A DNA stretch of 20,166 bases from a virus: IMG/VR virus record IMGVR_UViG_3300023184_000628, positions 1-20,166 of that record. One strand, written 5' to 3'. Position 1 is the first letter of the stretch, and every line of letters begins with the position of its first letter. Under the pieces are notes generated by a model. That model had not been told where the DNA came from. It did not search any database and worked only from the letters and a program-made list of their open reading frames with translations. This document shows positions 4,662-20,166 of the stretch, piece after piece. Both the position numbers and the translations under genes were made by a program.

Positions 4662-6050
4662 CTAGCTTCCAAGGTTATATGTAGCTACTGGAGACCTTCC
4701 AAGTTGTAAACTTAGATTACCAGAGCCAATATACACGGTTTCTGTACTTGAAGGGTTTCCAACTGCTGGTCGACTTGCGTATAGATCCCATGTCCCTGGA
4801 TCAAGAAAACCAACATACGCGTAAGCATCGTCGTACGTAACACTAAGCGTGAGTGTATCGCGCGTTTCATTAGTAACTGTGGCAGTTCCAGCACTTGCTC
4901 CGTACACAACATTACTAGCTACTTTGTAGTAACTAAATTTCGTTGTACTATCAATTTCTGTTATATAATAAGAACCGTTAAATGTAGAGTTTATACCAGT
5001 GATAGTTACTAGATCATCTACAACAAAACCATGAGCAACAGACGTAGTAATAGTGACGATGTTATCTGTCAACTCCTTATGTGTAACAGACCTGACCAAG
5101 TCTGCTGTAATAGAGTTAATTGAAACTGCGCCAGAACCAATTACTTTAGTATTTGTTCCATCATAATTAGAAATTTGTAACGATGGTATCCACGCTGGAT
5201 TTGAGACTAAGAAGCCGGCCCCAAGATAATCTATGTTTACGTCGCGTGTTCCACCCTCGCTACCAGTTATCACCATGTCAAGATTTGAGTTACTGTTAAG
5301 CTTTAAAGGTTTAGCAATAAGACGACGAGCACGAGAAATATCAGGAGAGAATACTCTAGCTTTTGCACGAGCCTTATCTGGATTAGTAGACTTTAAGAAA
5401 AGATCAACAATATACAAACCAGTACGCATATCATCAATGAAATCTTGATTATCAAGAATAGTGTAAGAAACACCTTGTCGAGATATTGATGTTACGCGAG
5501 AAGGTAGATCACAATCATCGCCATTCCAAAGTTTAACAAACTCTGTAGCAAGAACGCGCGCAGCAGCCTTACCAGATGCTGGCGGAGGAGAACCATAACT
5601 ATAGGTTACTTCAATATTACAAGGAGACCATGCAAAACCTGCTCTAGCTTGCAAAGTAGAATGATCTACAAGATAATAGTGAGAAGGCGCAACAATGCTG
5701 CCACTTCTGTTTCTTACGGAGTGAATCGCGACTACTGGTGTGCCACGAAGACGGAGACGAGTAGAAGGTGACATACCGTCTGTTGTAAGTTCAGCGTAAT
5801 CGTCAAACTCGTCAAAAGGAATGTTATACATTTCTCCGCCGACAAGCTCTGGTGAATAATTACGAGTAGACCCACCAAGACGATACGCTCTAGAAGCGCA
5901 TATGTAGCGCTCAGTAACTGTAACAACTCCACCATACTTGCGACCAGAGAGCGCCCATAGAATCTGAGAAGCTACCTTTACTGCGTCATAGGCATATTCA
6001 TTGTCGGCATATGAGTCAAGTTCTTCTGTGTTTACCCATAGATTCGACAT
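4662..6050 (-). CDS. Head-to-tail adaptor (gp6-like) with C-terminal beta domains
   Basis: 462 residues, ATG start preceded by an AAGGATAAG site. The N-terminal part (about 1-240) carries the actinophage adaptor pattern: YAYDAVKVASQILWALSGRKY, a beta region, YSYGSPPPASGKAAARVLATEF, then LPSRVTSISRQGVSYTILDNQDF and GLYIVDLFLKSTNPDKARA followed by RVFSPD. Adaptors form the ring below the portal that joins the tail. Typical adaptors of this type end near here; the remaining 220 residues are additional. They include a Ser/Thr-rich beta region (about 250-320), an FCCH-like module (about 321-394: AHGFVVDDLVTITGI, FNGSYYITEID) and a final beta sandwich-like strand set. These additions may be surface decorations. 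The gene lies after the probable major tail gene, an unusual order. Confidence 0.7.
   Translation of the reverse strand: MSNLWVNTEELDSYADNEYAYDAVKVASQILWALSGRKYGGVVTVTERYICASRAYRLGGSTRNYSPELVGGEMYNIPFDEFDDYAELTTDGMSPSTRLRLRGTPVVAIHSVRNRSGSIVAPSHYYLVDHSTLQARAGFAWSPCNIEVTYSYGSPPPASGKAAARVLATEFVKLWNGDDCDLPSRVTSISRQGVSYTILDNQDFIDDMRTGLYIVDLFLKSTNPDKARAKARVFSPDISRARRLIAKPLKLNSNSNLDMVITGSEGGTRDVNIDYLGAGFLVSNPAWIPSLQISNYDGTNTKVIGSGAVSINSITADLVRSVTHKELTDNIVTITTSVAHGFVVDDLVTITGINSTFNGSYYITEIDSTTKFSYYKVASNVVYGASAGTATVTNETRDTLTLSVTYDDAYAYVGFLDPGTWDLYASRPAVGNPSSTETVYIGSGNLSLQLGRSPVATYNLGS
4870..5090 (-). repeat. FCCH-like beta module, copy in the adaptor gene
   Basis: This encodes residues about 321-394 of the adaptor. 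Motifs are TTSVAHGFVVDDLVTITGI, FNGSYYITEID, TTKFSYY and SAGTATVTN. It is the most diverged of the three copies in this window but keeps the AH-x-F-x-x-x-D-x-V core and the NGSY strand. Confidence 0.65.
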
Positions 6051-6155: not shown

Positions 6156-7202
6156 TTACGAAGATGGATCGTCTACAGACGCGATAATAAAGTCTGTAGC
6201 AACGTCAGCGTTGTAAGATGCATTACCAGGTACGTTGTACGCGGTGGTAGATCCTTGAGAAGTGAAGTCAGTAACTGCACGGCTGTTTACAGCAACTACT
6301 GCTGTTCCGGAGTCCGCGCTAGACGCAATAGTTCCACTCGTTGTAGTTGCATAAGTAAACGTTGTTGCTGTTGGCACTGTAACAATAGTGTATGAACCAT
6401 TAAGAGCAGTGTTAGTTAAACTTGCAACGACTACTGCATCGCCAACTGCAAATGTATGAGCTGTTGACGTAGTAAGTGTCGCAGTTGTACCCGTGCGAGC
6501 AACGTTTGAAACAGACTTTGAGATATCTGGGTGCCAGGTGTAGAAACCCTTGCGGCCTGTTGGAGCCCAGCTAGCACGCGCGTAAGAGTACGGGCGCTCT
6601 GTAGCTGTTGGGAATTCCCATCGATCATCAAGACCGGTGTTGAACTCATCATTACCAAGACCATAACCTTCGAATGTTGTAGCAAGCATACCGTTTTCAA
6701 TTACGCGATCTCCTGAAAGACGAAGCTTTGCATATGGGAACACCCAGTGGAAGTAAGGAAGAGTTGCTGCCTTCTTTCCTTCAATAACTGCGTTCGACCA
6801 TGTCTCAATAGCAACACCGTAACCAGCTGGGTCATCGCCAACTCCTGAAGAAGACCAACCGATTGACTTACGATTTGGTGAAGCATAAGTTCCGAGGTTC
6901 TTGCGAAGCAGTAAACCACCGGAGATGAGCTGAGTAAGCTCTGGGTCTGGCTCACAAATAGCCAATTCCATAGTAATGCGCTTTAGAGTGTCAGGAGACT
7001 TGTATGTAACACACACAATTCCACTAGCGCTCTTCTCTGTAATTTCATCGCCTTCTTCGTACTCTGGTGTGAACGAAAGACGCATGAAGCCAGATGTGGT
7101 GTAGCTATCGCCGGATCCATTTAGGAGTGTTCCCGACGCGTCAAGACGAGTAACTCGAATTGACACACCCTGAATGCTAGCTGCGTATTCTTGAGTTGCC
7201 AT
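6156..7202 (-). CDS. Probable major tail (tube) protein with an inserted FCCH-like module
   Basis: 348 residues, ATG with a clear AAGGAG site eight bases upstream. The beginning (EYAASIQGVSIRVTRLDASG), then SFTPEYEEGDEITEKSASG and later strands match the style of actinophage major tail proteins, the ring-forming subunits of the tail tube. Residues about 229-305 form a separate Ser/Thr/Ala/Val-rich beta module (TSTAHTFAVGDAVVVAS, NGSYTIVTV, ATTFTYATTTSG) also found in the second capsid protein and the adaptor. After it only some 40 residues remain. A strong hairpin follows the stop, fitting a highly expressed structural gene. A second possibility is a capsid-associated protein; the tail assignment rests on sequence resemblance and on no other tail tube candidate being visible. 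Confidence 0.6.
   Translation of the reverse strand: MATQEYAASIQGVSIRVTRLDASGTLLNGSGDSYTTSGFMRLSFTPEYEEGDEITEKSASGIVCVTYKSPDTLKRITMELAICEPDPELTQLISGGLLLRKNLGTYASPNRKSIGWSSSGVGDDPAGYGVAIETWSNAVIEGKKAATLPYFHWVFPYAKLRLSGDRVIENGMLATTFEGYGLGNDEFNTGLDDRWEFPTATERPYSYARASWAPTGRKGFYTWHPDISKSVSNVARTGTTATLTTSTAHTFAVGDAVVVASLTNTALNGSYTIVTVPTATTFTYATTTSGTIASSADSGTAVVAVNSRAVTDFTSQGSTTAYNVPGNASYNADVATDFIIASVDDPSS
6287..6518 (-). repeat. FCCH-like beta module, copy in the major tail gene
   Basis: This encodes residues about 229-305 of the probable tail protein. It has the same order of motifs as the other two copies: TSTAHTFAVGDAVVVAS, LNGSYTIVTV and ATTFTYATTTSG, closing with SGTAVVAV. Of the three copies it is closest to the capsid copy (shared TSTAH). 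Confidence 0.7.
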
Positions 7203-7259: not shown

Positions 7260-8351
7260 CTATGCCGTTAGATCGATCTTGATTCCGATATGTATTGAAG
7301 GATCAAAGTAAGCTACGGCTGAACGAGTTGCTTTAATCTTCATGTCGTTTGCGTTGCCAGATACGTTGTATCCCTGAGCTAGATTGTCATTTACTACTTC
7401 TGACTTGCCTAAGTGCGCGAACACCTTGCCAGTAGCGTAGATCCATTTTGTATTGTCATCACCTAGCATCTGAGCGTTAGCCACTCCTGTGGGGGCTGTT
7501 GCCGAGATATTACCGGTAGTCTTTGCAAAGGTAAATGTTGTAGAGTTAGTTACCGTTACGGTATACGTGCCAGAGAAGCTTGTAGCCCCAACCAATGCCA
7601 CGATCTGAACTGACTCCCCTGTTGCAAAATAGTGAGCAGTAGAAGTTACAACAGTAGCAACGTTACTTGATACAGCAATTGTTGCTATCGCAGCGTGAGG
7701 ACTATCTCCTGGGTAACCTGAGCCAATAATGACCTGGGCGCCAGATGCAGTTTGCATGTGTTGCGTATCTTTATTGTCCATAAATAATTGATTATTGCCA
7801 GTCAATAGCACAAAAGCATCGCGAGTAAGGTGAATAACACCGTGCTCTCCAGCAGGCGACATCTCTCCAGCGTACTGCTCTAGAAGAGCAAGGCCGCGGC
7901 GAGGGCTAAACTTTGCACCACTAGAAATGACTGTTACGCTAGATTTTGATAGAAAAATATTTGGAAGCCCCTGTGCTAGCGCAATTTCGCCATTCCATAA
8001 TTCAGATTCAAGTGCTTTTTGAGAAACACCCTCAAGTTGCTTAATAACACGCGCAAAACGATCTTCACCTAAGATGTCAAACGTAGAACGCTGATCTTCA
8101 ACTTCAATAAAAATTGGTCTAACTTCTTTGTAAAGAGCAGAGCTAGGATTGGAAGATACTACGAATGACGTACTAGAAGTTTCGTCCCAGGTGCGAACAT
8201 AGTTCGGCAAAGTATCGTACATTTGTGAAAAACCGCGAGTCCATTTGTCTTCGTCACTATGATCTGCAGGAAAAGCAGGTTTGGCTACAGCAAACAGGCC
8301 GAACTCTGTTGGTTCAATGCCTGGCGCTGGAAATATTCCATTAAAAGCCAT
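7260..8351 (-). CDS. Second HK97-type capsid protein, putative pentamer subunit
   Basis: 363 residues from an ATG at 8351 with a weak upstream AGGA/GAGA. Visible blocks are DQRSTFDILGEDRFARVIKQ, SELWNGEIA (near residue 118), GEHGVIHLTRDAF, GAQVIIGSGYPGDSP and KWIYATGKVFAHLG. This succession is the pattern I associate with actinophage capsid proteins annotated as pentamer subunits, with an HK97-like fold. Some large actinophages use separate hexamer and pentamer proteins, and the 682-residue protein just upstream would be the hexamer one. Residues about 222-294 are an inserted FCCH-like beta module (TSTAHYFATGESVQIVA, SGTYTVTVTNSTTFTFAK), probably exposed on the capsid surface. A minor capsid or decoration role is an alternative. 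Confidence 0.55.
   Translation of the reverse strand: MAFNGIFPAPGIEPTEFGLFAVAKPAFPADHSDEDKWTRGFSQMYDTLPNYVRTWDETSSTSFVVSSNPSSALYKEVRPIFIEVEDQRSTFDILGEDRFARVIKQLEGVSQKALESELWNGEIALAQGLPNIFLSKSSVTVISSGAKFSPRRGLALLEQYAGEMSPAGEHGVIHLTRDAFVLLTGNNQLFMDNKDTQHMQTASGAQVIIGSGYPGDSPHAAIATIAVSSNVATVVTSTAHYFATGESVQIVALVGATSFSGTYTVTVTNSTTFTFAKTTGNISATAPTGVANAQMLGDDNTKWIYATGKVFAHLGKSEVVNDNLAQGYNVSGNANDMKIKATRSAVAYFDPSIHIGIKIDLTA
7470..7691 (-). repeat. FCCH-like beta module, copy in the second capsid gene
   Basis: This encodes residues about 222-294 of the second capsid protein. Its pattern is V-x-T-x-T-S-T-A-H-x-F-x-x-G-E-x-V, then SGTYTVTV, then TTFTFAK. The module lies between GYPGDSP and KWIYATG, which belong together in relatives, so it reads as an insertion. 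Equivalent copies lie at about 6287-6518 in the tail gene and 4870-5090 in the adaptor gene. Confidence 0.7.
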
Positions 8352-8454: not shown

Positions 8455-10503
8455 TTAGTATTCAATCGCTGCAGCAGAAGCTCCACCAGTAGTATCACGG
8501 AGGGCAGCAGCCACACCGTTAACGCTAATGGTAGAAGTAATCTTAAGCGATTCAACTCCAGCGAATGCAAGACCTTCGAAGGTTTCAACGAACATCTTGT
8601 AATCGTTGGTTCCAACGAGAGTCGAGTCACGGATGATACCAAGATCAAGAGTACCGCCATCAAGGAACAAGAATGAACCTTCAGCGAATAAGTACCAGAT
8701 AAATGTATCTGGGAACTCGTTCATTGCGCCAGCTGATTGAGCAGCGAATGCGGAAGTGCCTCCAGCGATATCAAGCGTGTACGTCACGTTAACATTACGT
8801 GAAGCAATGTACCCTTCGATCTCTGCATAGGCGCTCATTGATGAATCACCAGGCATTGCCAGAGTAAGGTCTGCTACCATTGCGTCTCTGATCCATGCTG
8901 GGATGATAGCGCGAAGTGGCGCATCAGCCTCAAGACGGTGACGCGCACGGTAAGCTGCAGAAGCGCGACCAAGTTGAACAAGGAAGTCGCGACCGAGACC
9001 AACAAGGGAAGTCGAAGTGACTGCCGTTGAAAGAGCACCCATACGAGTAAGAAGCTGACCTTCTGCTTCACGAGCATGTTGAATAAGGCCAAGCTCGTTG
9101 TGACGAGCGACCAATTCAGGATACGCGCGAGTAAGAAGGTTACCGAACTGGAGCTGCAAGGTGACGGCGTCAGTAGCAACGGTCGTCTCTGAAGCTGCAG
9201 TAACAGTAAGGCTTAGCTTAGATGCTGGAGACGGGGTCTCTGCTGAATCGTTTGCTGCTGTCCAGATTCCTACAGAAGCTGCATAGTCAGCCAGCACTGG
9301 AGGAGTGATGTAGCGAATACCACCACGATCTGCTTGAAAACGAGGAAGTGCATCACGAACGGGACGGGCAGTAGTGCCAATTCCGAAGATGTCGTACTTA
9401 ACCTCGAAAGGTGTTTGATGTCCACCAGAAGCAACAAGTGCTTCAGGTCCGACAACTGCTTGGATCTTTGACCAGTTAGACTCTGCATCTTGTGTAAGAG
9501 TGCGTGCCTCTGGGAATTTGGTGGTAAGAGAAGCAACAATATGTTGTTCTCCGTCTCCACCATTTACACGACGAAGAGTATGAAGGCGCTTTGCCATTGC
9601 CTCTGCTACTCCACTCATGTCTGAAATTGCACTGCCTGCAGTTGTTCCAGGAATATCAGCGCCTGCCGTGATTGCCACGGTGGCCGCTGTACTCATGGAA
9701 GTTGGGCGGCGGTCTGCTGGAGCTTCAAAAGTCTCCGGCTCATTAACGGCGGCGGTCACTGGTGCCTCCTGATCTTCCTGCGCTGCTTGCGCGTTGGTGT
9801 TTTCTTGAGTTTGTGCTTCTTCTGCGGATGCTGCAATTGCCTCATCAGCAACAGCAACGACTTCTTCTACAACAACTTCTGCTTCAACTGCCGAAACGAC
9901 AGCCTCAACAGCTTCTGGTGCAGCTACTTCTTGTGGTTCTTCGATTGAAAGTTCTGACGCTGTTTTCGCAGCAGTTGACGCTTCAGCCATAAGTTTTGCC
10001 TCTTCTTCTTTCTTTTTCTCTTCTTCCTCATCAAAAGGAGTTTCAGTAACTTCTTCGATAGGGTTTTCTTGAGATTCATCCACTGGGGTTTTTTCTACAG
10101 GAGCTTCAGTTGCATCTGCTGGAGAAACTTCTTCTTCAACAGGAACATCAACTGCGGGAGCTACTGCCATTGCCTCTTCAGGCTTTTCTTCGCCAGGGGC
10201 TGCTTCTTCAGGAGCGGCTTCACCTTCTGGTGTATCTTTTTTCATAGCGTCTTCACCTTTAACACGCATAGCAGCTTCTGCTGCACGAGTAGTAAGCTCT
10301 TGTGTAGCGGCCTGACGGCGCGTTACTTCACCGCGAACGGTGTCAAGCATATCGGCTAAAGACGTCATGGCGTCTACTGTTTGCGGAGTAGGATCTTCCT
10401 TTTCAACCGTCTCAAACTGGCTAATGATCTCACTCTGAAGCTCAGCGACTTGATCGTCACTTAGCTCAGTCAGTGTATCTAGCATTCCTGTAATACGGTC
10501 CAC
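8455..10503 (-). CDS. Major capsid protein with fused acidic scaffold-like N-terminus
   Basis: 682 residues. GTG start at 10503 preceded by GAGGAGGG seven bases away, the best ribosome site in the window. Residues 1-80 are helical; about 85-262 are Glu/Ala/Pro-rich low complexity, strongly acidic, with a Lys/Glu run near 155-170. From about 303 the actinophage HK97-type capsid pattern begins: AKRLHTLRRV, FPEARTLTQDAESNWSKIQAVV, EALVASGGHQTPFEV, RPVRDALPRFQADRGGIRYI, SVGIWTAAND. Then come the helices and strands through ITSTISVNGVAA near the C-terminus. The mature domain is about 380 residues, the family's usual size. In HK97-type phages lacking a scaffold gene, such an N-terminal region acts as internal scaffold and is removed by the maturation protease. 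No separate scaffold gene is present here, so the fusion fits. Confidence 0.88.
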   Translation of the reverse strand: MDRITGMLDTLTELSDDQVAELQSEIISQFETVEKEDPTPQTVDAMTSLADMLDTVRGEVTRRQAATQELTTRAAEAAMRVKGEDAMKKDTPEGEAAPEEAAPGEEKPEEAMAVAPAVDVPVEEEVSPADATEAPVEKTPVDESQENPIEEVTETPFDEEEEKKKEEEAKLMAEASTAAKTASELSIEEPQEVAAPEAVEAVVSAVEAEVVVEEVVAVADEAIAASAEEAQTQENTNAQAAQEDQEAPVTAAVNEPETFEAPADRRPTSMSTAATVAITAGADIPGTTAGSAISDMSGVAEAMAKRLHTLRRVNGGDGEQHIVASLTTKFPEARTLTQDAESNWSKIQAVVGPEALVASGGHQTPFEVKYDIFGIGTTARPVRDALPRFQADRGGIRYITPPVLADYAASVGIWTAANDSAETPSPASKLSLTVTAASETTVATDAVTLQLQFGNLLTRAYPELVARHNELGLIQHAREAEGQLLTRMGALSTAVTSTSLVGLGRDFLVQLGRASAAYRARHRLEADAPLRAIIPAWIRDAMVADLTLAMPGDSSMSAYAEIEGYIASRNVNVTYTLDIAGGTSAFAAQSAGAMNEFPDTFIWYLFAEGSFLFLDGGTLDLGIIRDSTLVGTNDYKMFVETFEGLAFAGVESLKITSTISVNGVAAALRDTTGGASAAAIEY

Positions 10504-10638: not shown

Positions 10639-13600
10639 TTAAGTTAATAGTCGAAGAAGTTTACTTAACTGAGAAGAAATCTCTTGTTGAGTAAAATAGT
10701 CTCCGCCTCTCATGAAAGACTTTAGATCAACTGTTGCCTGATCTGCGTCTTTCTTGCCTATCTTGTCTTCTACACGTGTAATCATATCGTCTAGAAGATT
10801 TTTTAACGCTGGAGGAAGATCGCTATAGCGCATCTTCTCGTTTTCATTACCAAAAGAAAATGGAAGATTAGCAACAACCTTTCCAAGTTCCCTAGCAGAA
10901 GACCGAATATTCTCTATAGAATCAGGATTTAATGCATTAGCGTCTAGTCGATCAATGATTGAAATAAGTTTAGCTCCAGACGCGGCAGCTTCAACGTAGT
11001 TACCCGCGTTGTTGAGCTTCTCTGTTTTTGCTATCTGATCCATTACATCTTGAGAACCAGAAGTACCAAGATCTTGCTTAATACGCGCTAAAACTTCACG
11101 AAACTTGCCTTTTTCATCGCGCGGTTGAGTCTTAGGGGTGTATATTCCCTTATCTTGTGCCTCAACCGCTAATGCTTTTCCCAGATCATCACCGATTTCT
11201 AATGAAATAGAAGCTACACGTGAACGAAGATCTTTAATATCTTCATCTATAATTTCAGTTGATAGCGTTTTCCATTCCTCTGGAACAACATCAGATACCC
11301 CGTGCTTACGTGCCATTTTAATAATATGACGACGAACTGCAGCACGCTTGCCAGGCTTAGCTCTCCCATACGCTTGGATTGCGTCTTTAACGCCTTCAGC
11401 ACTAGTAATAGGGAATGAACCATCTGGTAGAGCTTTACCTTCTCTAGCAAGTTTTTCTCGACGTGGACGTGACAGAGATGCAAACGCATCGTCGTAGCGT
11501 GGCTCGCCGTGGATTCGCTCGTACAGCGCATCAGCTTGAATTGAAAGTTCAATAGCTTTATTCTCAATAACTTCACTAAATCTAGCGCGTGCAGCGTCAG
11601 CTTTAGCTGATAATTGAGCGTTTTCTAACTGCTCAAGTTTTTCTATACGAGCAGCCAATTCTGTAACTGGATCTGACTTCATCCGCGCAAGAACGTTAGC
11701 GCCAGCTGCAACAAGTGCCATAACAGCACCAGACGCAACACGGGCACGAGCAATCGGAAATCCTGGAACGTTTACTTGACAGACTGCTACAAGTTCAAGA
11801 TTACCCTTAATTGGGCGCCAGTCACCAGAAGGTGCAGACGCGCGAAGAGCACGGATTTGCTCTGGACTAGTCCCTGGACGAAGAGCGCCAGAAACCCAGA
11901 TACCGTAGGAGTCTTCCCCAGCGTGTACATCAGCTATTGCGGATGCTGTATCATCGTAGTGACGAACTGCTTCGGACGCGCTAGCTTCAAGTGAAGCATG
12001 CCCACCTGCGAGAGTGAGCTGACCGACTGGGACATCGGTTCCAGCGTCTGTACGAACAACTCCCGTGTGGAAGAACGCGTACTTGCTCTTGCTACGCGGA
12101 GGCTTAGTGCCATACGACATTCCAATATGATCAACGTGCCAAGCAGCAATGTGCCCATACACGCGACCAGAATCATCAACTGTTAAAGGTGTAGCTTTCT
12201 TTAGTTCTGGGTTACTGAACCAGTCACTCGGTGGAACGACAGGAATAGATCCAGCAACCAGGCCACACGCAACGAGTGCAGAAGCCTCTACTGGATCCAT
12301 TTCGTCGACGTACGTTCCGTCTGGAATCACAGTGTCCTCCTTATTCTCGTCATTGACGAGGTAGATTTGGCACTCTTGAAAAGCAGGTTTTGGTACAAGA
12401 GTAACCGCCATAACTCGTGCGTGTGATATCACGAGCTTTTCATTTTCTATTTTACCAGAGTCTTGTTCTAGTTCATTGTCCTTTTTGTTATCTTCTTCAT
12501 TTGCTTCGAACTGATCAAGGTCTGCAGAGACTCCACGAATAAAACCTTCTCGTACAAGTCTTTCAGCTTCTTTACCATACGCTCCAGAATCAAAAACGCC
12601 TCTAGCGTTTCCAATTCCTTTTTCAGTGCGCTCCATTGAGTCTATTCTTCCAACAACAACTGAGCCATTGTGCCCTTCATCTGTTTTTATCTGCCACATA
12701 AGAGGCAAAGGAAGCTCACGAATTTCTATAGAACCCTTATCGAATTGTCTACCATCACCGGATTCAACACCTTCTGGTAGAACTAATGGAATAGAGAACT
12801 GGTATCCGGAGACTAAAGTGTCTTCTTCACCTGATGCTGTAAGAACTCTTCGCCTTGCACTTTGGGCCTTAGCAGAAAGAATAGAAGCATCTAAAGTCTC
12901 TCTATAAGACAGAATCCCATCAACTGCAAAAGCACTGTTATTCTTCATACCAGGATTACGACTGTCTCCTGGCCACATTCCAGTTGTTTCCTTATGTCGT
13001 AGTGAGCAGTAGCCCTTAGCGCGTGGACCCATGTATTTCTTAAGATGACGATAGCATCTTGTCCAGTCTCCTGGAGTATTCCAACGAATCTTAAGTCCGC
13101 CTTTACCTACTGTCCAGTATTTACGTAAAGTTTCAGCATTCCCGCGATTCTTGTCAGCTCCACCAGCAGCTGTCATTCCATGATCGCATTCCTGAGCCAT
13201 CAGTTCATCGTCTTCTAACAGTCTAACAATGTGCTCTTCTGGTTCCCACTCATGATCATACAAATCATCATAGGTAATATAAATAGCATCTATTGGCATA
13301 TCCATATCTTCTTTAGTAACCTCAGTAAATGGTTTCATTGTAAGAGGATCAAAAGGAGTCTCCATAATAAATTCTTCTACAGAGTTATTACGGGCTCTGT
13401 CACGCTTAGCATGAGTTGAAGTATAGAAACCTAGAGCGTCTTTGTGACGAAGCTGGCAGTAGCCTTTAGCTCTAGGTCCTAGATACTTAGCAAGATGGCG
13501 TACGCAACGAGACCAATCTCCCTTTGTCCCCCAACGAATCTTTGCAGCGCCTTTACCACGCGTCCAATAACGGCGTAAAGTTTCAGCATTCCCGCGATTC

Positions 13601-15762
13601 TTGTCAGCTCCACCAGCAGCTGTCATAACCATAACGTTTCCATTAGGTCCCCAGAGAAGCGTAAAGAACTCGCTATCTGCTTCAACAGATGCTGTAACTG
13701 GGACAATTCCATCGATTTGTTCAATTACTGATTTAAGAGTTGGTCCATCAAGAGGTATAACAGGAGGAGGAGTAGGGGAACCTAGATCACTAATAACTGT
13801 CTCATTACGAACCCAGCTTTTGTCTATTCTGCTATACGCCATAGGATCAGTAGATGTTGAACTTGCAGGCACGAGAGCAATAAGGTCAAGAACAGCGCCT
13901 GGGTCATCATTAGCTACTATCGCAAAAAATATTGGCTGAACATCGCTATTAGTAGGAGTCATTTCACGCGACTCTCCAGCTACATCAGGAACTTTATCTG
14001 CTATTTCTTCTGAAGCGTCTACAGCTGCTATTAAGCCGCTTGCACGAAGTAATGGTTGAAAGTAGACTTTGTTAGGGTAGTAGTACTGGCCATTAGAGCC
14101 TTTAACTTTCTTGTTTAAGAATTTCGACAAGAGAGGATCCTTATAAGGATCAGTTATTAGTTTAGTTCCAGTTAATTTCTCAAGTTCTTTAAGTGCGTCT
14201 GTTTTCTTAATTTCCGGCACTTGATCTTTGCCAGTAACAACTTTTAGTTTCCTGGCTTCAGGCATCTTGCCAACTTCAACCTTTTGCGGCACGGGGAGAC
14301 TTTCAGTAAAACCATCGCGCATACTTTTTACGTGACCAGGAAAATCATAGAGAACTTGTGCAAGATCTTCAGGACCAAGTCTTGGCAAAGTACCAGGTAT
14401 CTTAGCGTCAGGACGGTCAATAGGAGCGCGAGGCTCACCAAGAATACCTGAAACGTCTAAAGGAGTAACATTTTTTACGTCGTTAAGAGACGGAGTGTAC
14501 GCGTCAGCTGGCTCAACTGCAGAACCTGGGACGCTAACTTCTGTACCAGTATTAAGACGTACACGAATAGTACCATCAACAGGATTAGTTCCAACAATCT
14601 TTCCACTACCTCTTGAAGCATCTCCACCAACAACAACGCTAGAGCCAGACTTAGCGAATCTTCCAGTCTTGTCACGAACTTGAACTTGAGCATTCTTTGC
14701 GCGTTCTTCAGGCGTATAGTTGCCATCACCTGGAGCTGCTGGAGCAGGAGAAGGCGCAGCGCCAGCTGCTGTAACAATTCTGTCAATAAATTCCATGTCA
14801 ATACCAGCAGCAGCATTAAGCATCATCATAGCTTCGTCGTAATTTACATCAAACAATGATACGCGCGCATTGGGATCTTCTTGGAAACAAGCAGAAAGAA
14901 ATAACGCAGACTCTGTATCGATTTCAACGTGAGTCACATCTGCAGAACCAAAATTATTATCAAGTTCTGCATCGTAGCTAGCAAGATCGTTATATACTCC
15001 TGGAAGATTATTCCAGAAACCAGCATCCCAAACAGAAACTGTAAGGTTCTCGTCTATTTTATAAAGACGATCAATGCCAGAGCCATCCATGTGCATGCGC
15101 GCAATGAACTCTGAAGAAGTATCATTAGAAAAACTATCTACGTCTGCGTCATATTTATTAGTAGCGTACACAGAATTATCTTCTATGTATGAGTTATCAG
15201 CGTACCCGTCAGCTTTTATTGCTTTATTCTTTTCACGCTCTACTATTTGTTGCGCCCATTTCCATGCGGTGTCGCCACCCCAGAGAGCCCACGCAATACG
15301 CCCATTTGACGGAAAGTTGTCCTCACCTGGGCGGTAGCCTTTCGCCTTCTTATCGACTTCATGACGAGGAAAATACTTCGCAATATGCCTAACTTTTTCG
15401 ATACCAATTTGACCACCCTTAGCTAACCTGCGTGCAGTGTTGATTCCAACAGAAGTTCCACCACGGTTATGCTCATTGTGCCAAGCAAGACCGCGTTCAG
15501 CCTCACTCTGGGCACCTTTAGGTATAGTGTACATACGACCAGCAGAGGCAACAATGCTTACATCAAGAGTAGTCAACGCTGCGCGTGCTAGGTCAGTAAC
15601 AGTTTCATCAACAGTAACACTAGAAAAGTCCCACGCTGCGGAAGCTAGTAATGACGACAAGCTACCCTGAGAAATAGTGACGTTACTTTCAACGTCTACA
15701 ATGACCGCATCATTCTCATGAGAAAAAAGAATATGTGAACCATTCTTTCCAACTATTTCCAT
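10639..15762 (-). CDS. Giant capsid maturation protease polyprotein (1707 residues)
   Basis: The ATG at 15762 directly follows the previous stop (TAAATG). Domains in order: residues about 75-170, a small conserved module (RGGTSVGINTARRLAKGG, RHEVDKKAKGYRPGE, GRIAWALWGGDTAWKWA); about 382-417, a KOW/SH3-like patch; 713-800 and 863-940, two copies of a Trp/Cys module (KIRW, DW-x-RC-x-RHL, GPRAKGYC, LRHK). Then about 985-1150 is the prohead protease domain with likely catalytic His1031 (KTDEGHNGS) and Ser1079 (RGVSADLD). About 1175-1340 is the actinophage region PPSDWF, YGHIAAWHVDHIGMSYG, GEDSYGIWVSGALRPGTSPEQ, LELVAVCQVNVPGFP. About 1449-1497 is a helical module (GRAKPGKRAAVRRHIIKMARKHG), and the C-terminus is helical. 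Related proteases are usually several hundred residues, so this chain is unusually long. It should cleave capsid precursors inside the prohead, and probably itself. Confidence 0.85.
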   Translation of the reverse strand: MEIVGKNGSHILFSHENDAVIVDVESNVTISQGSLSSLLASAAWDFSSVTVDETVTDLARAALTTLDVSIVASAGRMYTIPKGAQSEAERGLAWHNEHNRGGTSVGINTARRLAKGGQIGIEKVRHIAKYFPRHEVDKKAKGYRPGEDNFPSNGRIAWALWGGDTAWKWAQQIVEREKNKAIKADGYADNSYIEDNSVYATNKYDADVDSFSNDTSSEFIARMHMDGSGIDRLYKIDENLTVSVWDAGFWNNLPGVYNDLASYDAELDNNFGSADVTHVEIDTESALFLSACFQEDPNARVSLFDVNYDEAMMMLNAAAGIDMEFIDRIVTAAGAAPSPAPAAPGDGNYTPEERAKNAQVQVRDKTGRFAKSGSSVVVGGDASRGSGKIVGTNPVDGTIRVRLNTGTEVSVPGSAVEPADAYTPSLNDVKNVTPLDVSGILGEPRAPIDRPDAKIPGTLPRLGPEDLAQVLYDFPGHVKSMRDGFTESLPVPQKVEVGKMPEARKLKVVTGKDQVPEIKKTDALKELEKLTGTKLITDPYKDPLLSKFLNKKVKGSNGQYYYPNKVYFQPLLRASGLIAAVDASEEIADKVPDVAGESREMTPTNSDVQPIFFAIVANDDPGAVLDLIALVPASSTSTDPMAYSRIDKSWVRNETVISDLGSPTPPPVIPLDGPTLKSVIEQIDGIVPVTASVEADSEFFTLLWGPNGNVMVMTAAGGADKNRGNAETLRRYWTRGKGAAKIRWGTKGDWSRCVRHLAKYLGPRAKGYCQLRHKDALGFYTSTHAKRDRARNNSVEEFIMETPFDPLTMKPFTEVTKEDMDMPIDAIYITYDDLYDHEWEPEEHIVRLLEDDELMAQECDHGMTAAGGADKNRGNAETLRKYWTVGKGGLKIRWNTPGDWTRCYRHLKKYMGPRAKGYCSLRHKETTGMWPGDSRNPGMKNNSAFAVDGILSYRETLDASILSAKAQSARRRVLTASGEEDTLVSGYQFSIPLVLPEGVESGDGRQFDKGSIEIRELPLPLMWQIKTDEGHNGSVVVGRIDSMERTEKGIGNARGVFDSGAYGKEAERLVREGFIRGVSADLDQFEANEEDNKKDNELEQDSGKIENEKLVISHARVMAVTLVPKPAFQECQIYLVNDENKEDTVIPDGTYVDEMDPVEASALVACGLVAGSIPVVPPSDWFSNPELKKATPLTVDDSGRVYGHIAAWHVDHIGMSYGTKPPRSKSKYAFFHTGVVRTDAGTDVPVGQLTLAGGHASLEASASEAVRHYDDTASAIADVHAGEDSYGIWVSGALRPGTSPEQIRALRASAPSGDWRPIKGNLELVAVCQVNVPGFPIARARVASGAVMALVAAGANVLARMKSDPVTELAARIEKLEQLENAQLSAKADAARARFSEVIENKAIELSIQADALYERIHGEPRYDDAFASLSRPRREKLAREGKALPDGSFPITSAEGVKDAIQAYGRAKPGKRAAVRRHIIKMARKHGVSDVVPEEWKTLSTEIIDEDIKDLRSRVASISLEIGDDLGKALAVEAQDKGIYTPKTQPRDEKGKFREVLARIKQDLGTSGSQDVMDQIAKTEKLNNAGNYVEAAASGAKLISIIDRLDANALNPDSIENIRSSARELGKVVANLPFSFGNENEKMRYSDLPPALKNLLDDMITRVEDKIGKKDADQATVDLKSFMRGGDYFTQQEISSQLSKLLRLLT
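12290..12815 (-). other. Prohead protease catalytic domain within the polyprotein
   Basis: Residues about 985-1158 of the 1707-residue chain. Order of motifs: QFSIPLVLPEG, RELPLPLMWQIKTDEGHNGS with the likely catalytic His1031, VVVGRIDSMERTEKG, GVFDSGAYGKEAERLVREGF, RGVSADLDQFEA with the likely nucleophile Ser1079, ISHARVMAVTLVPKPAFQECQI. This is the herpesvirus-assemblin-like fold of phage maturation proteases (HK97 gp4 type, MEROPS family U35/S78). Between the serine and the final strands is an Asp/Lys/Glu-rich insertion. Confidence 0.85.
12930..13630 (-). repeat. Duplicated Trp/Cys module with 53-bp identical ends
   Basis: Bases 13124-13176 and 13574-13626 are identical over 53 positions, 450 bases (150 codons) apart and in the same frame. 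They encode the start of each module copy (MTAAGGADKNRGNAETLR). The remainder of the two copies (residues 731-800 and 881-940) is similar in protein (KIRW, PGDW or KGDW, RC-x-RHL-x-KY, GPRAKGYC, LRHK) but clearly diverged in DNA. Identity limited to one end suggests local gene conversion or strong selection on that segment. Confidence 0.85.
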
Positions 15763-16374
15763 TTACTTATTCCCCGTCTTATCATTCGCTGGCGCTCCAG
15801 CGCTTTCTTGCGTTCCAAAAACTATAGGTCCAACGTACCCTTCTGATTCTTTACCATCAATGTAATCAACTAACCATCCATTTGGACCATTAGGATCAAC
15901 GCTGCCAAGCGCAGCAAAAATAAGTTCAGTCATTCCAGGAGCATCTACTTCTGCGTCAGGGTCACCATTTGAAAGCTGGTCTGCTAGATCAGGATAGTCA
16001 ATAAGTACTTGATACATATCATCGTACCGTGAAGCAACAACAGCACTCATAGCAGCGCCATTGCTTTCTTGCATAGATCTTTCCATTGCAAGCTTTTCAC
16101 TTTTTATTGCTATCTTTTTACTGCTTTCTTCTATTGACTTAGAAAACATAAAGTAACCTAAACCAAACGTAGCAATGCGTAGATAATCGTCAACAGTCAG
16201 ACTACTTTTATCTGAGGTAACACGCGAAAGAATCTCTTCTACTCTACGAGAAGAATCAAACATTGGCTTCTTGTCATCAAGGAAAACATAGCTAAAACCA
16301 GAATCATCTGCCATGACAGAAAACACATGCATATCGTTATTGCTAGTGTCGTAAGCTCTTATAACCTTTATCAT
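15763..16374 (-). CDS. Hypothetical 203-residue protein
   Basis: I do not recognise this protein. It starts at ATG 16374 with AAGGAG about ten bases upstream, 14 bases after the stop of the large preceding gene, and ends immediately before the start of the protease polyprotein, so it belongs to the same operon. Residues 1-50 look like beta strands (MIKVIRAYDT, MHVFSVMADD, FSYVFLDD). About 75-125 is helical with a Ser/Lys/Glu-rich coiled-coil-like segment, and about 140-175 is another helical region rich in Asp and Pro. The C-terminus is Gly/Pro/Ala-rich and looks disordered. No signal peptide is present; the short hydrophobic FGLGYFMF near residue 90 is too short for a membrane span. Its position suggests a head-assembly role. 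Confidence 0.75.
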   Translation of the reverse strand: MIKVIRAYDTSNNDMHVFSVMADDSGFSYVFLDDKKPMFDSSRRVEEILSRVTSDKSSLTVDDYLRIATFGLGYFMFSKSIEESSKKIAIKSEKLAMERSMQESNGAAMSAVVASRYDDMYQVLIDYPDLADQLSNGDPDAEVDAPGMTELIFAALGSVDPNGPNGWLVDYIDGKESEGYVGPIVFGTQESAGAPANDKTGNK

Positions 16375-16388
16375 TGCGTATTGTCTCC

Positions 16389-19300
16389 TTAGCGCCAGAA
16401 TCGATTATTTAACATTGAGAGAAACTCTTCATGGTAACTGCCATTTACTTTAAGCATTTCATCTAGACGATTGTTAATTACGTCTCTAAAAGCGTTAATA
16501 CTTCCCCATTTAGCGATAATTCTATCAAGCTCTGGTCCTGTAGGGAACTTCTCTTCTTTCATTAAACTTTCTCTTAGACTATCAGCTTCATTTCTAAACA
16601 TAGCTAGAAGCTCATCTTCTTTTAATCTACGAGTAAGCGCTGGCATTGTCATTGTATAAATGGTTTCTCCTTGACCTGTAAGAAGACGTGTTATGTGAAT
16701 AGTGTCTGCATTCATCGTATTTAACATAGCAATAGCGTGATCAATAGGAAGAATATGGACCTTACTTGGATCAGTACCATCTAGAGCTAAAAGAACGTTA
16801 CCATTATGGCGATCTGCATTTGATAGAAGAAGATCTAACAAAACCATTCTAATGGCTTCTTCAGGAGAACTAAGCTTATCAATAAGAGTATCACTATTTA
16901 CGCTAACTACGCTTCCGTCTGAAGCAACTAGATCATTTAGTTCCTCAAAAACTGAAGAAGCTAGCACTGGCTTCTCAATCAAAGGACCAACACTTCCTGC
17001 CATTTGCATAATTACAATGTCGCTATTATTACTATTTTGGCGAGTCTCGTACGCTCCAATCATGCCAAGACCATTAACTAAAACACCAGCGGATGCTTCT
17101 ATAGCAACTGCGTCTAATCCGTAATGACTTGCTCCCTCATCAAATTTTACGTAAAAAATCTGTCCAGAAGCATCATGCACTGCCTTGTACGTCATGTTCT
17201 GACCCGACTCCGCGTAGCTTAATGGCCTAATAGTAAAGCCACTAACAGCGTCATCTTGAATATCCTCAGGAGAAGCTTCTGACAAAACGTTTCCAACTCC
17301 GAAGTCATTAGAGCCAAGACTAGGATTATCAGCGCGGTACTCTTCTCTTAACACGTTTCGTAATTTAATAACATCTTCAAAAGGCATAACTCTACTACTA
17401 TCGAGTAACTGTTTAGCAGTATAGTTATTAAGAGCATTCTTAGCTGCTGGAGACAAAGCTGCTAGGGATCTATTATTTTGAAGTACGTCACGTATTTCTG
17501 CAAGATAAGGACGAAGAGCTTCATTGTTATCAAAGAAGTCGTTACTATTCATTTTCATAACAAGTTCTCTGCTTACATTTGCCTTATTTACTTTATTTTC
17601 TACTCTGTCACGAGCACGACGCATTTGATCATAGTTAGCGGCCTGCACTTGCTCTACAGCAGCCGGGTCTAAGCGCTTTACACCGTTCCAACTGTTGTCT
17701 GTCATGAACTTTTTACCTACCCATGACTTAGCGTCAGGGTACCAGCCAACAAGAGCAAATTCCATAGGAGTAGGAACCTTATTAGCATCTAGAGTACCAT
17801 CAGGTCTTTCAGCTTCTTTAATTCGCGAGATTAGATTATCAAGGTGCGCAAGAACTTGAGGATTTGATTCCATATTGCGCATACGACCTATTTTACGTAA
17901 TAAACTAGTACTAAATAGTTCAGATGAGTCCCAGTTAAATCCGTTAAGAGCCCAGACAAACGCTCCCTCAAAGTTACTCCCGCCAGCAGCCATAACGTGA
18001 ATCTCTTTCACGCCATTAGCGATATACCAGTCTTCCATGTACCTGTTGTACGAGAATGCAAAGCCAGACTTCTTGTTTGCTGTGTTCATTCTCATGTAAG
18101 AGTTCTTAACTTGCCACTCGAAAGAAGTAGTACCATCGAGGTTATACACTTTTTTCCCAACAATATTTCTTTCTACTGTTCCTGCCTTGACTCCGTTTTT
18201 ATCATTAATATCTATTGAAATTGAAATGAGTACCTTAGCAGTACCGTTTTCTATTTCTTCAGGAGTGCCATTAACATGAGTGCTAAGAGCAGTCTTCTTT
18301 AAAGTGTAGCCCTTTCCAAATGAAACACCATCACGTACGCCAAAAGCGTCTGCAATAAGCGTATCGACAAGCTCTTTAGTTTTTTTATTGTTATCAACAA
18401 GATCTTGTAATTGCTCTGGAGAAAGACTATCGTTTCTTCTACCATTTGCGTACTCTTCGTTAGCAGTGTACTGATCTAGAATTGCTTTCTTTACACTAGC
18501 AAGTGTAGCTCTGTCAGTTCCAGCTCGTGCAATTTCAGATGCTCTGGCGCCCCATGCTTGGAAATCTTTTTGCACAGCATCAGCATTTACGTAAGGGAGC
18601 ACGTCTTGTGGTGTATCTCCAAGACTAGCTACGCCAGGGACGTTTCCTTCACTAGCGACAGGCGCAGGATTGACAATAGGAGCATTCACTCTTTGAGCAA
18701 TATCTGGTATGAAGCGTGGAGTTGCTGCAGGGGCAGGCATGGCTGGCACAACAGGAGCAGCGTTATCAGTAACGCGTACTTTCACTGCTGATCTAACAGC
18801 TACTTTTCCATCGTCAAAACGAATTCTTACATATGGTATTCTTTGCCCAGTTCGACTATCAATGTTTTGCACGCTTATAACTGTCCCAAGCTTACCATCA
18901 GAATTAGCTCGTACACGAGTTCCGGCTCCCATAACTCTTCCGTCTAAAGAAAGAACAGTATTATTTGGTGAGTAGCCTGGTATTTCTGGTCCAGGGTACG
19001 TTAATGCAGGAGCCGCAGGAGCCGCAGGAGCCACGACAACGTTAGGCTCAGGTTTAAGTTCAGGAGTTGGTGCAGGTTCAATGGTAGGAACTTCAGGTAC
19101 AGCAGTGTCTACTGGTTTATCTGACTCTGAAAAGTCATTTGACTCTTTATTAAGCATATCAATAATATTGTTAGTGTTAACTCCTAGATACTGAAGAGCA
19201 TCGCGGACAGCCTCTACAGGGACTTCGTATGTATTGAGATCATTAAACGCTAGATACGCAGCACCAGAACCATCAGTAACACTTATAAGAACTTGTTCTA

Positions 19301-20166
19301 TAAGATCAGCTTCATTAAACATATGAGCAAGATACTCTGGATTATCAGTATAGCCATCAGCATCTAGTTTCAACTGAGAAGGTACATAGTGATTAGAATC
19401 AATAACATAGTAGTCTGGATTATTAAAATCAACTGGTATATTTTCAATTAAAGAACCAGGAAGCTTATCGTCCAAGTTGTACGCTTTGTTATCGCGCGAA
19501 ACAGATACTGAAGTATCTCCGATAGGAGTAGCATCAATTATTTGACGAATCTCCGCTGTAATATCATCAACAAGTTTAGCTTCCTCTGGTGAAGGAACTC
19601 CACCTTGTGCCTCAATAAGACGATCAAGGTTGTTGTTATTACCATTTACAGAGTCGTAAATGTTCGCAATAACACGATTAGGATCCATGCCAGCTTCCCA
19701 TATAGCGTTATACAACGCTCCAGCAGGTACATACTCTTCTCCAGCATTAAATTCTAAACGACCAGCGCCTGAAGGCGTACCAATACTTACTTGCGGTATA
19801 TCAACGTTGTTACCGAGATCTTCAGCAGAAGGAATATCTCCAGAGTCATCTACGTTAGCGTTTAGAATTTCACTAATAGCTGAGTCAGACGAATTACCAA
19901 TAAGAGCTTCACTAAACGCTGCTACTAGATCTTGAGGAGTAAACTTTGTTGCAAGACGCTTAGGGTCATCAGTGAAGTCAGTGCTTGTCTCGTCAACACG
20001 CCCGTCTGGTTCATATTCAGCAGTGCGGAGTTGAAACGCGGTTGTTGGCGCATCAAAGTTATTGAACAAGGCTGGCGCTTCTGGATTAGAAGGGCTAGGT
20101 GTCTTAGGTGGAGTTCCACCTGATGGAGGAGTTGGTGGCTCGCCTGGGGCGTCGCCGGTGACAGGA
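16389..20166 (-). CDS. Multidomain head-proximal protein with GNAT-like and PI3/4-kinase-like domains (5' end missing)
   Basis: The frame is open to the window edge. The TTG at 20069 has no ribosome site and is preceded in frame by a Pro-rich linker (PSGGTPPKTPSPSNPEAPA), so the real start is outside. Numbering from that TTG: about 15-150 and 225-315 are two diverged repeats; 316-372 is a Pro/Ala linker; 379-433 is a KOW/SH3-like patch; about 590-720 is GNAT-like (SGFAFSYNRYMEDWYIANGVKEIHVM, split here for length, then FVWALNGFNWD). About 945-1150 is kinase-like with Lys975 (YVKF), Glu991, hinge DIVIMQMAG, catalytic loop NADRHNGN (Asp1086, Asn1091) and metal-site Asp1110 in PIDHA. The DRH-x-x-N loop is the PI3/4-kinase and HipA signature. 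It lies where portal or MuF-type minor head genes usually sit. An injected effector or head protein is inferred. Confidence 0.75.
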   Translation of the reverse strand, partial: PVTGDAPGEPPTPPSGGTPPKTPSPSNPEAPALFNNFDAPTTAFQLRTAEYEPDGRVDETSTDFTDDPKRLATKFTPQDLVAAFSEALIGNSSDSAISEILNANVDDSGDIPSAEDLGNNVDIPQVSIGTPSGAGRLEFNAGEEYVPAGALYNAIWEAGMDPNRVIANIYDSVNGNNNNLDRLIEAQGGVPSPEEAKLVDDITAEIRQIIDATPIGDTSVSVSRDNKAYNLDDKLPGSLIENIPVDFNNPDYYVIDSNHYVPSQLKLDADGYTDNPEYLAHMFNEADLIEQVLISVTDGSGAAYLAFNDLNTYEVPVEAVRDALQYLGVNTNNIIDMLNKESNDFSESDKPVDTAVPEVPTIEPAPTPELKPEPNVVVAPAAPAAPALTYPGPEIPGYSPNNTVLSLDGRVMGAGTRVRANSDGKLGTVISVQNIDSRTGQRIPYVRIRFDDGKVAVRSAVKVRVTDNAAPVVPAMPAPAATPRFIPDIAQRVNAPIVNPAPVASEGNVPGVASLGDTPQDVLPYVNADAVQKDFQAWGARASEIARAGTDRATLASVKKAILDQYTANEEYANGRRNDSLSPEQLQDLVDNNKKTKELVDTLIADAFGVRDGVSFGKGYTLKKTALSTHVNGTPEEIENGTAKVLISISIDINDKNGVKAGTVERNIVGKKVYNLDGTTSFEWQVKNSYMRMNTANKKSGFAFSYNRYMEDWYIANGVKEIHVMAAGGSNFEGAFVWALNGFNWDSSELFSTSLLRKIGRMRNMESNPQVLAHLDNLISRIKEAERPDGTLDANKVPTPMEFALVGWYPDAKSWVGKKFMTDNSWNGVKRLDPAAVEQVQAANYDQMRRARDRVENKVNKANVSRELVMKMNSNDFFDNNEALRPYLAEIRDVLQNNRSLAALSPAAKNALNNYTAKQLLDSSRVMPFEDVIKLRNVLREEYRADNPSLGSNDFGVGNVLSEASPEDIQDDAVSGFTIRPLSYAESGQNMTYKAVHDASGQIFYVKFDEGASHYGLDAVAIEASAGVLVNGLGMIGAYETRQNSNNSDIVIMQMAGSVGPLIEKPVLASSVFEELNDLVASDGSVVSVNSDTLIDKLSSPEEAIRMVLLDLLLSNADRHNGNVLLALDGTDPSKVHILPIDHAIAMLNTMNADTIHITRLLTGQGETIYTMTMPALTRRLKEDELLAMFRNEADSLRESLMKEEKFPTGPELDRIIAKWGSINAFRDVINNRLDEMLKVNGSYHEEFLSMLNNRFWR
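16620..17235 (-). other. PI3/4-kinase/HipA-like phosphotransferase domain
   Basis: This is the C-terminal domain of the partial multidomain protein, roughly residues 945-1150. The order fits a kinase-like fold: a Gly/Tyr-containing first strand pair (SGQNMTYKAVHDASGQ), Lys975 on the third strand, Glu991 on the following helix, a hydrophobic hinge (DIVIMQMAG), helix MVLLDLLLSNADRHNGN carrying Asp1086 and Asn1091, then ILPIDHA with Asp1110. All residues expected for ATP and metal binding appear to be present, so activity is plausible. The substrate cannot be deduced. Confidence 0.65.
17880..18310 (-). other. GNAT-like acyltransferase region
   Basis: Roughly residues 590-730 of the partial multidomain protein. 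Beta strands (AKVLISISIDIND, GTVERNIVG, SFEWQVKNSYMRM) lead to KKSGFAFSYNRYMEDWY, resembling the acetyl-CoA-binding loop and helix of GNAT proteins, then VKEIHVMAAGG and FVWALNGFNW as the later strand and helix. The strict Q/R-x-x-G-x-G/A loop is degenerate here. The fold call is therefore tentative and activity uncertain. Confidence 0.45.

Follow-up and report, generated by a model that had tools for sequence, protein, structure and literature searches.

What is a phage head maturation protease doing in the middle of a chain of 1707 residues? The question is raised by a gene of the IMG/VR virus record IMGVR_UViG_3300023184_000628, of which positions 1 to 20,166 were analysed (the window); the gene occupies 10639..15762 on the minus strand, as do all features of the chain and of the capsid gene described below. 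An earlier note, made from the sequence alone, had proposed that the protein is a polyprotein that carries small head proteins into the prohead and then frees them by self-cleavage. As regards self-cleavage, this idea is probably right: conservation, structure models and motif statistics make it likely that the 1707-residue protein is a self-processing head polyprotein, in which a central protease of the assemblin fold would free the modules around it at sites in the junctions.

The gene is real and widespread in large actinophages. Its open reading frame (ORF) starts with an ATG at 15762, which abuts the TAA of the preceding gene, and its stop codon ends at 10639 (1707 codons). A second IMG/VR contig (L002) encodes an identical chain, and relatives are encoded in about 175 stretches of IMG/VR viral contigs, many of them aligning across residues 1-1707; thus, the ORF is not an assembly chimera. 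The length and the embedded protease described in the earlier note are both confirmed. Eighty of the 175 stretches were kept for analysis and the conservation alignment consists of 62 full-length sequences. In the phage collection (GenBank), eight records match the chain over at least 80% of its length, among them Actinomycetia phage DSL-LC01 and cultured Microbacterium phages including Pumpernickel, Cece, Big4, A3Wally and Zooman. The version of the chain in Cece is somewhat shorter, at about 1550 residues. The host group of the window virus is probably the actinobacteria.

Residues 985-1142 (12337..12810) are modelled as the beta-barrel fold of the assemblins. The AlphaFold2 (AF2) model of residues 985-1140 has predicted local distance difference test (pLDDT) scores of mostly 75-92; fold comparison with the PDB returned T4 gp21 (5jbl) with a Z-score of 9.4 over 118 residues and herpesvirus assemblins with Z-scores of 7-9, and the top Foldseek matches all belong to the assemblin family (best E 2.8e-3). 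The presumed catalytic residues His1031 (12670..12672) and Ser1079 (12526..12528), correctly named in the earlier note, are invariant in 62/62 sequences. D1081 and E1086 are invariant too, and a conserved Ala-Arg pair at 1115-1116 lies in the strand that usually bears a Glu in S78 proteases. The chain has no match to the Pfam family Peptidase_S78 (the HK97 gp4 family), and matches of its relatives stay below the threshold (best 20.1 bits vs a gathering cut-off of 21; E 7e-4 in L012).

Along the chain, conservation peaks alternate with poorly conserved stretches, and profiles derived from the peaks give the module order N1-A-B-C/C2-D-E-E'-PRO-X-F-G, with PRO being the protease. The chain thus consists of about eleven separable modules, about ten of which flank the protease, more than the 'at least five' previously counted. 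N1 (residues 1-62, 15577..15762) is a small predicted beta domain (pLDDT 83-90), A (76-178, 15229..15537) is basic, helical and phrog_2859-like and B (208-322, 14797..15141) is acidic and alpha/beta; C+C2 (349-572, 14047..14718) and D (600-684, 13711..13965) follow. E (722-789, 13396..13599) and E' (872-938, 12949..13149) are closely similar tandem copies of phrog_6439, with a single E in most relatives. C-terminal to the protease are domain X (1146-1370, 11653..12327), which ranks among the most conserved parts of the chain, F (1426-1500, 11263..11487), which is present twice in L009 and L011, and G (1542-1707, 10642..11139). All these assignments rest on profiles, joined by conservation for N1, A, B, D, X and F, by models for N1, B, C+C2 and D, by motif counts for C+C2 and by gene splits for G. 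The long Pro/Ala/Ser linkers of the earlier note did not hold up: only one linker (about 333-348) is rich in these residues, and the remaining ones are short, disordered and rich in Ala, Ser and acidic residues.

Foldseek matches of the N-terminal modules were weak only (best E 0.07, NusG/Tudor-like) and comparison of modules A, E and F detected no common ancestry. When domain X was examined as a possible second assemblin, which would make a tandem protease, the profile-profile probability between PRO and X was 0.7%, and AF2 models X poorly (pLDDT <40). Domain X alone matches Gordonia phage genes annotated as 'head maturation protease' (L085:8466-9479, L086:6305-7306); as the profile of the assemblin domain has no match in the stretches fetched for these two phages, the name may be wrongly inherited. 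Five relatives (L060-L064) have a Pro/Ser/Gly-rich insert of about 240-285 residues between C2 and D that contains small repeated units (GYSTGG...IYPGES / WYGEKN...APGFVMQEDG); the copy of L062 has no Pfam match.

By sequence, the module junctions are marked by a common motif that resembles a cut site. Similar strings (IVASAG, IVTAAG, PVTASV, VMTAAG and VLTASG) were first spotted by eye at the poorly conserved junctions, and the motif was then formulated as [VILM][TVAIS]A[ASG] and counted in 26 representatives with less than 75% identity, with expectations taken from shuffled windows. At each of eight junctions it is present in 10-26 of the 26 representatives (1-6 expected), whereas the equally variable intra-module stretches 385-438, 470-535 and 1085-1108 contain it in 0, 1 and 0 of these sequences. 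Since the first two of these stretches are the inner linkers of C+C2, this module pair is probably one product. A Gibbs sampler without pattern input recovers A-[LIVM]-[TV]-A-[ASD]-[GA] at the junctions; trained on seven junctions, it scores the eighth at z 4.1-14.5 against shuffled sequences, while five of seven control windows score between -1.2 and 1.3. Over the whole chain, the ratio of observed to expected motifs against local shuffles is 3.06 (z 23); in tail, connector, ART and giant-protein genes it is 0.8-1.5.

In the chain of the window, cuts (arrows) are predicted at SIVA↓SA after residue 72 (15541..15558), AIKA↓DG after 184 (15205..15222), IVTA↓AG after 332 (14761..14778), GLIA↓AV after 579 (weaker; 14020..14037), PVTA↓SV after 691 (13684..13701), VMTA↓AG after 715 (13612..13629) and GMTA↓AG after 865 (13162..13179). 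These seven are all the predicted sites in residues 1-945 and each falls at a pLDDT below 50, in segments that make up 30% of the model. From the motif, further cuts are predicted at VLTA↓SG after residue 976 (12829..12846), at the start of the protease unit, at ARVA↓SG or ALVA↓AG after residue 1343 or 1352 (11701..11745), with akin sequences also found in the phages Atuin, Forza and GMA2, and at SRVA↓SI after residue 1517 (weaker; 11206..11223). Cutting at these sites, with 1352 taken for the alternative pair, would give the pieces 1-72, 73-184, 185-332, 333-579, 580-691, 692-715, 716-865, 866-976, 977-1352, 1353-1517 and 1518-1707. The predicted products 73-184 and 866-976 have isoelectric points above 10, which makes an association of some products with DNA plausible.

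The same motif appears in the neighbouring gene for the major capsid protein precursor (8455..10503; phrog_777, NF033847 with E 4e-94), which has a fused, acidic, scaffold-like N-terminal region. Capsid proteins were never part of the Gibbs training, and they peak at 30-55% of their length with a z of about 12, at the border of the scaffold-like region and the shell; motif counts at 42-55% of the length are 6.35 times the expectation (z 15). The motif scan of the capsid protein of the window found PVTA↓AV (9745..9762), AITA↓GA (within VAITAGADIPG; 9658..9675) and, directly ahead of the conserved shell, ALVA↓SG (within ALVASGGH; 9424..9441), a candidate for the mature N terminus; a PDB match, sought to place this terminus, was not found. 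The capsid protein precursor is thus a probable second substrate of the chain protease.

Some relatives distribute the modules over several genes. L011 and L051 have a split of the gene between C2 and D, and L010 and L012 have one ahead of G (by TAATG or Shine-Dalgarno-GTG coupling); DSL-LC01 likewise has G on its own gene. The split ends of L011 and L051 have no motif, which would fit a gene boundary taking the place of the cut. In L091, the chain is on two genes, N1-to-E-E and PRO-X-Dps-F-G, and in Arthrobacter phage Atuin and the Gordonia phages Forza and GMA2, D/E and X are on different genes. Two further breaks were not counted: the break in L056 cuts through a conserved module and looks like a frameshift error, and the first break of DSL-LC01 (L082, OQ999401.1, 9752-9812) is inside module D and resembles an assembly frameshift. 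The second ORF of L037 has no clear start codon. The DSL-LC01 record (OQ999401.1) lists three coding sequences, each named capsid maturation protease.

Additional domains are inserted at the junctions. A Dps-type ferritin is located between X and F in L012 and L037 (Pfam Ferritin, E 9e-13 and 7e-11), and searches with Dps as query add the chains of L088, L090, L091, L123 (2363 residues), L158 and L159; in the records searched, no cultured phage is among these Dps-bearing relatives. The motif flanks Dps in these chains N-terminally in 7/8 and C-terminally in 8/8 cases (L158 and L159 look like near-duplicates). For the flanks of Dps ORFs elsewhere in viruses, the figures are 5/28 and 0/8; the difference is no more than indicative, as many of the N-terminal flanks used for comparison are probably upstream extensions of the open frame that are not translated. 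A Cys-rich module is found between D and E in L022 and L027 and after F, at the C-terminal end of the gene, in DSL-LC01, indicating that modules move between slots; its match to HiPIP is below the cut-off (E 0.06). The chain of L123 has an extra insert of 450 residues (L123:5352-6701) with a DUF5824 domain (E 2.6e-9), the Cys-rich module and a weak ParB-like match, and the motif strings PLTAAV and PITAGT surround its Cys-rich part. Outside this family, Dps is fused to canonical S78 prohead proteases (E 1e-39 to 1e-49) in L120:7479-9002, L152:7321-8718 and L165:7113-9107; in L120 and L152, the fusion directly precedes an ORF that, judged by eye, is capsid-like, and the L165 fusion has a HAD/polynucleotide-kinase-like domain too. 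Dps thus seems to be a recurrent passenger of prohead proteases.

We propose the following mechanism. The modules would enter the prohead joined on one chain, and the central assemblin-fold serine protease (985-1142) would cut the disordered linkers at hydrophobic-[T/V]-A↓[A/S/G/D], yielding about ten products of 7-40 kDa and one peptide of 24 residues. The same protease would probably remove the scaffold-like N-terminal region of the capsid protein at like sites, and the freed modules would remain in the head. Junctions would serve as insertion points for cargo such as the Dps/ferritin, Cys-rich and DUF5824 modules or a duplicated E or F. We infer cleavage, its order, packaging and the functions of the modules from these patterns, whereas the chain, the protease fold, the modules, the motif, the gene splits and the cargo are seen in the sequences and models. 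As in a viral polyprotein, the presumed substrates are encoded together with the protease.

The window lists its genes in the order giant protein, 203-residue gene, chain, major capsid protein, connector, tail and tape-measure genes. The giant ORF (16389-20165, minus strand) is truncated by the window end and has 2026 residues in L002; a PI3/4-kinase-like stretch close to its C-terminal end is just short of the Pfam cut-off (E 3e-5). The 203-residue gene (15763-16374, minus strand), of unknown family, directly precedes the chain; it has 8 motif copies vs 2.3 expected in only five sequences, and its product may therefore be another substrate of the protease. Three different structural proteins (7260-8351, 6156-7202 and 4662-6050) have the similar short stretches SNVATVVTSTAHYFATGESVQI, ARTGTTATLTTSTAHTFAVGDAV and TTSVAHGFVVDDLVTI, perhaps a surface module common to all three.

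Several observations weigh against a self-processing polyprotein. Since the motif was initially picked out by eye and the sequences compared are homologous rather than independent, the z-values are inflated and overstate the certainty; the tests to rely on are those with left-out junctions and with the capsid protein. Two control windows score too (6-58, with 'LLASA', z 8.9, and 605-680, z 4.0), but their matches are inside folded modules; unlike the predicted sites in residues 1-945, the motif-like strings at 37-42 and 614-619 sit in well-folded modules. The motif is weaker at junctions 4 and 7, and at junction 2 the chain of the window has K in place of T/V. The evidence from gene splits is mixed, as the motif persists at the split ends of L012 and DSL-LC01. 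In Forza, GMA2, Atuin, L011, L051 and L091, these modules are spread over separate genes: covalent linkage is thus not obligatory, which weakens it as the only way into the head. We found no cleavage or virion protein data for these phages. The self-cleavage claimed in the earlier note nevertheless has strong support from the motif at junctions and capsid border, which is absent from control linkers, from the disorder of the junctions and from gene splits at junctions; the modules are candidate internal head proteins.

Three other explanations have to be weighed. The prohead proteases of T4 and of herpesviruses clear their own scaffold (PMC4498786, and established knowledge), and the chain could similarly be a stable multidomain scaffold-protease, with modules that form an inner scaffold or a portal-associated core and are removed or degraded as debris rather than delivered. 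The capsid protein already has an acidic scaffold-like region; the flanking modules, however, are folded and strongly conserved and in part occur on separate genes in other phages, motif sites are located between and not within modules and Dps-type passengers make little sense as scaffold, all of which renders this explanation unlikely. We consider it very improbable that the whole chain is a polyvalent effector that is injected and acts, or gets cut, in the new host cell: multidomain proteins of the head region with assorted domains including assemblin-like peptidases do fit the definition of such proteins (Iyer et al. 2017, PMC5512222) and a giant protein with a kinase-like stretch is encoded nearby, but that giant ORF has no motif enrichment (1.15x the expectation), and the motif at the scaffold border of the capsid protein points to an action during head maturation. 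Slightly more improbable still is that the motif is a linear docking or assembly motif, for example for binding to capsid, portal or protease. In favour of this, the motif is known from its enrichment in sequence and the scissile bond is putative; on the other side, the motif fits the A↓S/T specificity of the same fold in herpesviruses, it is placed in disordered linkers between modules and it occurs in several copies per linker at varying positions.

The self-processing polyprotein has partial parallels in known systems. Herpesvirus assemblins cut at R and M sites (YLQA-T, VQA-S; PMC4498786). These sites and the junction motif have a common layout of hydrophobic residue, variable residue, Ala, cut and small residue; moreover, the herpesvirus assemblin precursor (pPR, UL26) is a protease of the same fold fused to a scaffold protein and releases itself at the R and M sites. 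It combines one protease with one scaffold protein, while the chain has about ten modules, and the likeness is one of fold and site form, with no match seen at the sequence level. Among phage proteases, the closest fold is that of T4 gp21, which cuts after (I/L)-x-Glu, whereas the de novo junction motif has Ala at the presumed position before the cut; the specificity of the chain protease would thus be closer to that of herpesviruses. T4, SPN3US and P1 have internal proteins that are taken into the prohead and trimmed by a protease of the assemblin fold, as proposed for the modules, with the difference that these proteins are encoded by separate genes. HK97-type S78 proteases, including the MuF/portal-protease fusions of actinophages, resemble the chain in the position upstream of the capsid gene, the His/Ser pattern and the fold, but the chain is several-fold longer and has conserved modules on both sides. 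Closest in concept are the polyvalent proteins, which also unite many unrelated domains on one chain among virion genes; some have assemblin-like peptidases, which are always C-terminal and for which a part in protein processing at virion assembly is expected (Iyer et al. 2017, PMC5512222). The protease of the chain, in contrast, is at residues 985-1142 of 1707 and is followed by X, F and G, and the chain differs further in being a head maturation protease that adjoins the capsid gene, with a nameable motif and the capsid protein as an apparent co-substrate.

Polyproteins that cut themselves apart are typically found in RNA viruses and retroviruses. In our literature search, no publication described a head polyprotein of such design or joined Dps, prohead protease and phage genomes, which says nothing of absence beyond the literature covered. 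A broader proposal, which we regard as evenly balanced, is that capsid building in a class of large actinophages relies on a self-cleaving polyprotein with junctions that act as exchangeable slots for basic and perhaps DNA-binding modules, Cys-rich modules and a Dps that may protect packaged DNA, that this cargo is loaded into the head on the protease chain and freed by an assemblin with herpesvirus-like Ala↓Ser specificity and that Dps became attached to prohead proteases more than once. The predicted cut sites are directly testable in cultured Microbacterium phages. If the polyprotein is real, the delivery of many head proteins on one chain would represent a new packaging route for a tailed phage, in which the chain itself sets the stoichiometry. 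Herpesvirus-type Ala↓Ser/Ala specificity in a phage protease would reinforce the link between herpesviruses and phages beyond the fold, and Dps within the phage head would suggest active protection of the packaged DNA.
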